64,000 bases of DNA. Source: Deltaproteobacteria bacterium (GTDB lineage: Bacteria; Myxococcota; B64-G9). The stretch is from positions 1 to 64,000 of the forward strand of contig JAFCZJ010000010.1 of NCBI GenBank assembly GCA_019314375.1. The letters run 5' to 3'. Each line of letters opens with the position of its first letter. Within the stretch, counting starts at the first letter, position 1. Below, in pieces: positions 515 to 3,270 of the stretch. The translations under genes and the position numbers were made by a program. The notes under the pieces were generated by a model. The model searched no databases. It saw nothing but the letters and a program-made list of their open reading frames with translations, and was not told the origin of the DNA.

Positions 515-1879
515 ATGAGAAGGGTGATGGGTTTGCTGAGCGTGGTTTTTGTGTTGGGCATGGCCGTGATGGTGGCGGGAGCCGGTAGAAAGCGCACGGT
601 TGTGGCTGTGTTCGACATCCAAACAAAGTTCTTGAAGCTGTCTTCGGCCAAGCGGAACATGCTCACCGAGCTTTTGGGTCAGGAATTGGGCGTCGACGGA
701 ATCTACCAGGTCATGCCGCCTGGGGACGTGAAGCGGTCCCTTTTGGAGCAGTCCGCCGAATCCCACAAGAAGTGCTACGACGAGAAATGCCAGGTTGAAC
801 TCGGTAGGCAACTTCCGGCCAACAAGCTTGTTACGACCACGATCATGAAGACCGCGGGCAAGTGCAGGGTGATGGCGTCCTTGTACGACCTGAGGAGGCA
901 GACGACCGATATCGTGGCCAAGGCGAAGTGCGCTTGTACCGAGGAAGGGCTTGTACCGGCCATCGAAAAGGTAGCGGCGAAGTTGCGAGCTTTTGGGACC
1001 GGTGGCAATTCTGGGTTCGTGGAGGAGATCGTTTCGGTCGATTTGAAAGAAAAGCAGGGCGCGGTGAAAGTATCGGCGAAGGATGGAAAGGGCAATGACA
1101 TCGCGGCCGAGGTCTACGTGGACGGCCGGAAGCTTGGCAGCGCGCCGGGGACCTTCAAGGTCTCCGTTTGTGCAAAAGAGCTGGAGGTAAGGCACCGGAA
1201 GCATGGGCGTGCTAAAAAGGACCTGTCGATCATCGAGAGGAAGTTGAGTTCGATCAACGTGAAGCTACAGGGCGGCGGAGGTGGCTTGCAGTGGATATAC
1301 AGCCGCCCGGCCGGGATCGATTTCACGAAGAGCGAGGTTACGGTGGCTCAATACCGGGCTTGCGTGAAGGCGGGCAGGTGTACAAAGCCGAAGACAAAGA
1401 GTGACAGCAAATATTACAACTGGGGATACGGGGATCGAGACAAGCATCCGATTAACGGAGTGGACTGGAACCAGGCGAAGTCGTTTTGCAAGTGGGCGGG
1501 AGGAAGGCTGCCGACGGAGAAGGAATGGGAAGCCGAAGCGTCGAACAAGGGGAGCCGAGAGTACCCCTGGGGCGGGGCGAAGTCGACATGTGCTCGGGTG
1601 GTGATGAAGGAAGGCGGTTATGGTTGTGGACGTGATTCGACCTGGCCAGTGTGCTCGAAGGCGAGCGGTAACAGTGTGAGTGGGTTGTGTGACATGGGCG
1701 GGAATGTGTGGGAATGGAATTCTTCTTGGTATGACAGCACGAAAAAAACTCGCGTGGTGCGCGGGGGTTCCTGGGACTTCGACGATACGGAGTTCTTCCG
1801 CGCGTCCAACCGCGACAGGCTTAATCCGTCGTACAGGTACAACAGCATCGGCTTGCGGTGTGGTCGGTCGTCCCAGTGA
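515..1879 (+). CDS. Secreted FGE-fold (SUMF1) protein, probable DGR target
   Basis: 454 aa. ATG 515 is preferred over GTG 506 because AAGAGG (501-506) sits 8 bases ahead of it. Residues 1-23 form a signal peptide. A Cys-containing N-terminal domain of unknown role covers about 26-165. A PEGA-like beta segment (VYVDGRKLG) lies near 205. The last ~190 residues are a formylglycine-generating-enzyme/C-type-lectin fold, with TKSEVTVAQYRACV, the LPTEKEWEAEA motif, a GNVWEW motif and a terminal RGGSW...IGLRC block. I see no evidence for the catalytic cysteines of true FGE, so a binding rather than enzymatic role is likelier. FGE-fold proteins with this C-terminal block are common targets of diversity-generating retroelements, and an avd remnant follows 55 bases downstream. 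Confidence 0.85.
   Translation: MRRVMGLLSVVFVLGMAVMVAGAGRKRTVVAVFDIQTKFLKLSSAKRNMLTELLGQELGVDGIYQVMPPGDVKRSLLEQSAESHKKCYDEKCQVELGRQLPANKLVTTTIMKTAGKCRVMASLYDLRRQTTDIVAKAKCACTEEGLVPAIEKVAAKLRAFGTGGNSGFVEEIVSVDLKEKQGAVKVSAKDGKGNDIAAEVYVDGRKLGSAPGTFKVSVCAKELEVRHRKHGRAKKDLSIIERKLSSINVKLQGGGGGLQWIYSRPAGIDFTKSEVTVAQYRACVKAGRCTKPKTKSDSKYYNWGYGDRDKHPINGVDWNQAKSFCKWAGGRLPTEKEWEAEASNKGSREYPWGGAKSTCARVVMKEGGYGCGRDSTWPVCSKASGNSVSGLCDMGGNVWEWNSSWYDSTKKTRVVRGGSWDFDDTEFFRASNRDRLNPSYRYNSIGLRCGRSSQ
1750..1877 (+). other. Candidate DGR variable region (VR)
   Basis: This is the 3' end of the FGE-fold gene, encoding RVVRGGSW through IGLRCGRSSQ. Known FGE-type variable regions have Asn-rich templates at the matching positions. 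Here those positions carry Asp, Phe, Tyr, Ser and Leu, mostly in NNC or NNT codons (GAC, TTC, GAC, GAT, TTC, TTC, GAC, CTT, TAC, TAC, AGC). That is what adenine mutagenesis of AAC/AAT codons would leave. No template repeat was found in the window, so the call rests on fold position, codon pattern and the adjacent avd. Confidence 0.5.
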
Positions 1880-1933
1880 TTCTGGATTCTGGCATTCTGT
1901 TGGTCGCCGAAAATTTAAGAAGAGCTTAGAGCC

Positions 1934-2273
1934 ATGAAGCAGTCACCTATTTTTGTCAAATCCTACCACCGCATCCTTTCAGGATGCGGCACAAAAGGTT
2001 CTACTCAATTTCTCAATGATTTCGTATTTGATTCACATTACAAGATCATTCCTCATTGAGAACCTCTAAGAAATCATGGTCTGGCTGATGCAGCACACCC
2101 GGAAGTTTCCGAAGAACCAACGATTCCTCATGGCCAACCTGAAAATGTACAATCGCTTGTGCAAGGACCTGAAGCTGCTGGCGTTCAACCAATACGAGTA
2201 TCTGGCGGTCGCCCTCGACGAGATCGGCAGGCTGCTCGGCGGCTGGCAAAAGAGTCTTGGCGTGAGGTCATGA
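1934..2273 (+). pseudogene. avd: Broken avd (DGR accessory variability determinant)
   Basis: Two pieces resemble the four-helix Avd protein. Piece one starts at ATG 1934 (MKQSPIFVKSY, to 1966) and matches the usual Avd N-terminus. Its frame then enters unrelated sequence and stops at 2057-2059. Piece two (2076-2273) resumes in another frame with HTRKFPKNQRFLMA, then passes straight to NQYEYLAVALDEIGRLLGGW, the typical Avd C-terminus. About 40 residues of the central helices are absent. Intact Avd is roughly 110-130 aa and helps the DGR reverse transcriptase make mutagenic cDNA. With an insertion of about 106 bases and an internal deletion, this copy is presumably dead. The family call rests on remembered motifs. 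Confidence 0.65.
1969..1989. repeat. Perfect 9-bp palindrome inside the avd insertion
   Basis: Arms CCGCATCCT and AGGATGCGG flank the 3-base loop TTC. The palindrome lies at the left end of the extra sequence that splits avd (about 1967-2072). No T-run follows it on either strand. It may mark a small palindromic mobile element, or it may be a DGR-type hairpin displaced from the variable region. I noticed no second copy in the window. Confidence 0.5.
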
Positions 2274-2434: not shown

Positions 2435-2776
2435 CTACAATTGTCCAAGTATTTTTGAGAGTTGGCTCTTCAAGGCGTGCAAATCTGTGGTAGCCGTCGT
2501 CCACACCATCCCAACGTCGACACCAAAATAGTCATGTATGAGCTTATCTCGCATTCCAGCGATATCGCGCCATGGGATCTCAGGGAATTGTTCGCAAATC
2601 TCTGGCGAGACGCGCTTCGCCGCTTCGCCGATAATCTGAATTTGGCGAATGACTCCATCTTGAAGCAAGCTGGTTGCTTGAAATGTACCCGCATCCACAC
2701 CAGACAGATACTCATCGATGGTGCTGATGGCCTCCAGCATATGTTGAAGGTAAAGCCGACTATCACGCGGCTTCAT
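2435..2776 (-). CDS. hepT: HepT-like toxin (HEPN, DUF86)
   Basis: 113 aa starting at ATG 2776 (MKPRDSR), which overlaps the end of mntA by 14 bases. The RX4HXY motif that marks HEPN RNases of this family is present as RDKLIHDY near residue 86. In characterised pairs HepT is an RNase that is neutralised when its MntA partner nucleotidylates the motif tyrosine. The length is normal for the family. It is read in the order antitoxin then toxin, from the mntA ribosome site. Confidence 0.85.
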
Positions 2777-3050
2777 AAACCACCCGCTGCGAAGCAAGGA
2801 TTTCGTCTCTTAGATGTGGGCTGATCGCATCTTCGGTCAAAAGGTCAACCCGTCGCCCCATTATCTCCGACAACTCTCGTTCCAGCTTCACGAGGGCAAG
2901 AAAACCGGTCGGACGACCAAATTCGACGAGCACATCGATATCACTATCAGGACCCGCATCGCCTCTCACAAAAGAGCCGAATAAGGCGACTTTTCGCGTC
3001 CCATGCGCCAAGCAAACAGCAACAAGCTTATCGATTGCAATTTGTTCCAT
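2763..3050 (-). CDS. mntA: MntA-like nucleotidyltransferase antitoxin
   Basis: 95 aa. ATG 3050 is chosen because AGGAGGT lies directly upstream; the longer frame to 3122 has no ribosome site. The minimal nucleotidyltransferase signature is complete: [15 protein letters not shown] fits GSX10DXD at residues ~26-40, and the later acidic region supplies a third carboxylate. The family modifies the HepT toxin encoded by the overlapping downstream gene. This reading therefore describes a self-contained type VII toxin-antitoxin pair, placed beside the decayed DGR locus. Confidence 0.85.
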
Positions 3051-3270
3051 GTCGCCACCTCCTGCCAGACCTGTTGCCCTATTAAGAATAGCAGCATACC
3101 CACACCATGTACACACAGCCATTGGAATCCAAATTTCTAACCACCATCAACCGCTCTTCCAGATCTACCTTTTCGCTAGTTTGACCCGGCCCAGCACATT
3201 CCCCTTCAGTTCCTCCGTTGAACCGGGCGCTTGCTCTTGTAATCAGGTCGGCCATTGACAAAAATTCTCT

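Follow-up and report, generated by a model that had tools for sequence, protein, structure and literature searches.

A probably dead diversity-generating retroelement and its two persisting FGE-domain targets in a genome of the Myxococcota

Introduction

Diversity-generating retroelements (DGRs) allow bacteria to alter the binding surface of a protein that they encode themselves. The variable protein TvpA of Treponema denticola belongs to a DGR system that has been described as functional. Loci that have lost parts of such a system are also on record. In Thiohalocapsa PB-PSB1, degenerate DGR loci occur together with MITE-like damage, the shuffling of lectin domains between N-termini, and targets that are served in trans (PMC10907252, PNAS 2024). 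Dispersed variable proteins of cyanobacteria, such as all3226, retain remnant TR-VR homology with no reverse transcriptase (RT) nearby, and the authors of that study propose that components are removed once a good variant exists (PMC7517822). Multiple variable regions are, in addition, common in DGRs (PMC6642488).

The locus described here lies near the start of a 64,000-nucleotide stretch of DNA, referred to as the window, from a genome assembly of 6.66 Mb in 370 contigs (97.6% complete, with a contamination estimate of 5.8%). As in Thiohalocapsa PB-PSB1, its machinery is missing or pseudogenised, MITE-like elements stand in place of components, lectin-fold domains have been duplicated behind different N-termini, and targets are remote from any RT; unlike that organism, which keeps one complete locus per DGR class, no RT or template was found anywhere in the window assembly. 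As with cyanobacterial all3226, target homologues persist without diversification machinery, yet here an avd remnant marks the locus, and past mutagenesis is read from two copies rather than from a surviving template. Published work thus already covers decayed DGR loci that mobile elements have damaged and whose targets lie far off, and the window locus is a well-supported further case.

Results

The target gene

The features of the locus, in window coordinates, are as follows.

515 to 1879, forward strand: DGR target gene, with a signal peptide, a TolB-like N-terminal domain, a PEGA-like domain and a C-terminal FGE (C-type-lectin-fold) domain
1290 to 1901, forward strand: 612-bp block with a duplicate on contig C283, where another N-terminus precedes it (89% identity; similarity stops at both borders)
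1774 to 1852, forward strand: variable region VR1, defined by difference clustering, template adenines and dN
1934 to 1966, forward strand: avd fragment 1, residues 1-11 (MKQSPIFVKSY), found by tblastn with the Avd of G020
1967 to 2069, forward strand: 103-bp hairpin, a MITE-like insertion that shifts the avd frame (fold z -5.6; further copies on C67 and, weaker, C308)
2070 to 2273, forward strand: avd fragment 2, residues 12-32 joined to about 70-107, up to the stop codon (PF22296, 3.6e-8; NF033474, 5.2e-13; alignment)
2435 to 3122, reverse strand: HepT/MntA-type toxin-antitoxin pair, a neighbour and not a part of the DGR (PF01934, 2.9e-27; PF01909, 2.5e-17)

The target reading frame begins at ATG 515 or GTG 506, ends with the TGA at 1877-1879 and encodes 454 residues. 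In profile searches, residues 274-452 match FGE-sulfatase (PF03781) at 7e-35 and the PEGA match is weak (0.023), while the signal peptide and the TolB-like label were assigned by inspection. The variable region is carried by the FGE-sulfatase domain at the C-terminus, which is the C-type-lectin-fold arrangement expected of a DGR target. The predicted structure of this domain has a mean pLDDT of only 65.7, falling below 50 at variable-region residues 169-180, so that the fold is not confidently modelled, and given this low-confidence model the comparison with the PDB was made by sequence profile and not by fold search. The profile matches TvpA and FGE structures; the match to TvpA (PDB 2y3c), a DGR variable protein, reaches 1e-18 and includes the variable region.

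Where at least three known FGE-type templates carry Asn codons, all 11 codons of the target are of the form NNC or NNT (GAC, TTC, GAT, TTC, AAC, GAC, CTT, TAC, TAC, AAC and AGC). No hairpin was detected 3' of the variable region (fold z 0.08). Short ATTCTGGATTCTGG-like repeats are found just past the stop codon of several targets, namely in the window (1877-1901), on C283, and in G005:C205 and G020:C271. The window genome (G000) contains 35 FGE-sulfatase domain matches, an unusually large family.

A broken avd gene behind the target

The avd gene starts 54 bp past the target stop and has suffered two kinds of damage, a 103-bp hairpin element after residue 11 and an in-frame deletion of 35 residues. 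Residues 12-32 and about 70-107 lie at 2070-2252, in a different frame from fragment 1, and the corresponding reading frame (2076-2270) matches both bAvd (PF22296, 3.6e-8) and DivGenRetAVD (NF033474, 5.2e-13), each under the curated whole-protein cut-off, as is expected for a fragment. The exact borders of the insertion were inferred from the avd alignment. The element has its hairpin and an adjoining motif in common with a site on C67, the copy on C308 being weaker; because of the strong hairpins and these copies elsewhere in the genome, the insert is read as a small MITE-like element. A transposase was considered as the cause of the insertion, and only the non-coding hairpin element and its two other copies were found. 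Beyond the avd remnant, the HepT/MntA-type pair, which also matches NF047752 at 2.4e-15, just under its cut-off, occupies on the opposite strand the place expected for the template and RT.

A sequence-only reading of the window had proposed a secreted FGE target with a DGR-type C-terminal block, followed shortly by pieces of avd, with mostly NNC or NNT codons at template Asn positions; the profile matches and the 11 of 11 codons bear out these points.

A second copy with a different variable region

A search of the genome with the FGE part of the target returned one close match, on contig C283. The gene there is intact, its separate short N-terminus appears to include a signal peptide, and no avd was found near it. 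Of the 66 differences between the copies of the duplicated block, 26 fall within 79 bp (1774-1852) and 40 in the remaining 533 bp (p 5e-9). In the C-terminal 25-codon variable region dN is 0.53, as against 0.055 outside, whereas dS is 0.205 outside and the same inside; the copy pair is thus under purifying selection outside the variable region. Both target genes remain open reading frames.

Differences fall on template adenines

Because the window genome lacks a template of its own for these variable regions, the adenine test rests on five FGE-type templates from other genomes, four of which have a paired template and variable region, the fifth being the template of G020:C271. Judged by these foreign templates, the variation lies at template adenines, as expected of a DGR target: 21 of the 27 copy differences coincide with consensus adenines and 6 lie outside them. 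Taken singly (n=5), the templates have 25-32 adenines in 90-93 bases and, of 26-27 differences, 17-21 coincide with these adenines (p values from 1e-6 to 3e-9); a register shift of 1-9 bases abolishes the signal. The G041 and L173 templates are one codon shorter than the other three, and a one-codon gap was introduced after the lengths were known; in the ungapped first alignment these two gave p of about 0.1, and with the gap both agree with the other templates.

Several codons keep their third base while positions 1 and 2 are both changed (TTC/GGC, TTC/GAC, TAC/GTC, AGC/GTC and AAC/TCC), and where the template codon is only partly adenine (GAC, AGG or ACG), the copies differ mainly at that base (GAC/GTC, AGG/GGG and TCG/CCG). 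The FGE pairs that served as controls, with comparable identity and taken from other lineages (Anaerolineales, Latescibacteria, Poribacteria and others), have conserved C-termini, and their changes fall mostly on the third position. Changes at positions 1 and 2 versus position 3 number 20 versus 84 in the pooled controls, whose pairs are not all independent, and 22 versus 3 in the window and C283 variable regions.

Three FGE paralogs of the window genome, on C289, C156 and C168 (L100, L102 and L103), are 71-76% identical upstream in pairs, with C-termini in which most differences lie at the first two codon positions. They had been considered as a negative control and, since they show the same pattern, were replaced by the pairs from other phyla; their C-termini are possibly older frozen variable regions.

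The machinery is missing from the assembly

An RVT_1 profile search gave zero matches across the whole assembly of the window genome, while the same search found RTs in 31 of the 58 genomes of the phylum set, the known DGR ones included. With a DGR RT as query, no match was obtained in the assembly at E up to 10, and no Avd was found in it other than the broken one of the window. A query built as the inferred template matched only the two variable regions, and a search for remnants of a template or RT beside the window locus or on C283 yielded nothing above chance, the template search being compared with shuffles. Among viral contigs, a single distant FGE relative was found, with no sign of a phage carrier.

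Consequently, of what characterises a functional DGR, namely a DGR-type RT, a template repeat and an intact Avd or equivalent, the assembly contains none, and what it does contain corresponds to a degenerate DGR locus: a target, an avd that is interrupted and partly deleted, and neither template nor RT. The absence of RT, of any other Avd and of a template means that the DGR is dead in this assembly, which leaves room for one unassembled cassette.

DGR parts in relatives

Complete DGRs are present elsewhere in the phylum, in G051:C6 with an FGE target, and in G020:C70, G034:C208 and G041:C82 with other targets. The PEGA and FGE part of the window target is 39% identical to the target of the G051 system, which like the window has an avd and whose FGE-type template carries Asn codons at the same places; unlike the window locus, all four of these systems have a template and an RT. 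In G051:C6 (L076:2689-7299) the RT of the complete DGR is encoded on the strand opposite the one that carries the target, the avd and the template. At G020:C271, the target, avd and template stand in the order expected at the window, and the RT is without its N-terminal half.

Within the family of the window genome, the TolB-like part of the target is 39% identical to that of a G007 target which adjoins a DGR-type RT. In that locus (C209, L074:131-2690) about 60 bp separate a TolB-like and FGE target from the DGR-type RT behind it, which is truncated at its C-terminus; neither template nor avd was found there. The second copy of the G007 target (C440) differs from the first in the C-terminal part by 14, 7 and 4 changes at codon positions 1, 2 and 3, as against 13, 6 and 22 upstream. 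Two further members of the family, G001 and G005, have related FGE genes with divergent C-termini and gave neither RT nor Avd matches. Another decayed DGR in the phylum is that of G014:C12 (L017:675-1957), where the initial 41 residues of an avd stand behind an FGE gene and run into an unrelated frame. Decay of DGRs seems to have occurred repeatedly.

A shortened FGE copy in G034:C174 (L016:1156-1677) ends in an all-Asn, template-like state (RGGSFNNNNTNNLRTSNRNNNNPDNRNNNNGFRCAQ*). In that genome a single RT was found, on C208, where it accompanies another template. The shortened copy may be a template that was born from, or stranded in, a copy of a target gene.

Discussion

Taken together, the avd remnant, the two variable regions that differ at template adenines, the failure to find an RT or template in the assembly, and the relatives' DGR components next to homologous targets make it probable that the DGR at this locus is dead and that its targets survive in frozen form. 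The original order would have been target, avd, template and RT. In copying the template, the RT would have put random bases in place of adenines; the 3' end of the FGE target gene would then have been exchanged for the resulting cDNA, which would have altered the putative ligand-binding face of a secreted, receptor-like protein. A copy of the FGE cassette would also have come to stand behind another N-terminus, on C283, after which the copies would have acquired different variable sequences. Later, avd would have been broken by the small hairpin element and the internal deletion, and template and RT would have been lost, such that both targets would now hold fixed, inherited variants.

The decayed DGR with an FGE target and broken avd that the sequence-only reading proposed is therefore strengthened by the discovery of another diversified copy, by the adenine test against foreign templates and by the DGR components that adjoin homologous targets in relatives, and the lack of RT and template repeat that it reported for the neighbourhood extends to the whole assembly. 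Its suggested genome search for a near-identical repeat differing at adenines succeeded in part, recovering a second variable region and no template, while the search for a DGR-type RT came back empty. It had also left undecided whether the target is frozen or diversified in trans. The latter, in which an intact DGR that is unassembled or unbinned, or is carried by other strains of the population, still diversifies both targets, is unlikely on present evidence. In its favour are the fragmented state and 97.6% completeness of the assembly, the open reading frames of both variable regions, and the example of Thiohalocapsa, where trans diversification reaches degenerate loci and where some structural variants keep an intact RT alongside others that are broken (PMC10907252). 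However, no RT, template or intact Avd is present in the assembly, and G001 and G005 of the same family are likewise without RT and Avd. Furthermore, the non-adenine sites of the two variable regions differ about as often as the flanks (6 of 63 versus 40 of 533; p 0.6, in a test with little power), which favours the absence of recent shared retrohoming, as repeated copying from one template would equalise these sites. The assembly thus favours frozen targets, with an unassembled DGR as the possible exception.

It is highly improbable that positive selection on point mutations drove apart the binding surfaces of two ordinary FGE paralogs, and that the adjacent avd relic is unrelated and came to lie there by chance. 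FGE-type templates do place adenines at surface codons, so that selection on that surface would partly mimic the pattern, and the paralogs on C289, C156 and C168 share it at lower identity. Yet point mutation would have to account for codons altered in both of their first two bases but not in the third, and for partly adenine template codons altered at the adenine only (GAC/GTC and AGG/GGG), when other FGE pairs of equal identity keep conserved C-termini; moreover, the avd relic directly follows the target, in the order seen in G020. Scarcely credible, finally, is an artefact of assembly, binning or contamination, by which the copies would derive from different organisms or the avd damage from misassembly. 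The contamination estimate of 5.8% and the positions of the target near the start of its contig and of the C283 variable region (VR2) near one end of C283 would allow for it, but the window and C283 have equal G+C (0.583), C67 and C308 of this assembly carry further copies of the inserted element, and the avd deletion is clean and in frame.

The preferred reading, a dead DGR with frozen targets, adds to the published cases in that the comparison of two copies would give statistical proof of past mutagenic retrohoming with no template in the genome. The same two-copy adenine test could reveal frozen DGR targets that are missed by searches based on RT or template. The locus, probably a DGR caught after its death while its products persist, also offers a way to test whether useful variants are retained by cells after diversification has ended. 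On a wider scale, it is possible, though we put this forward tentatively, that the whole family has made DGR output a fixed, inherited repertoire: many FGE receptor-like genes that bear the variable-region footprint would persist in G000, G001, G005 and G007, which represent several genera, after loss of the machinery, and the fossils would differ by genus, an avd remnant here and a truncated RT in G007.
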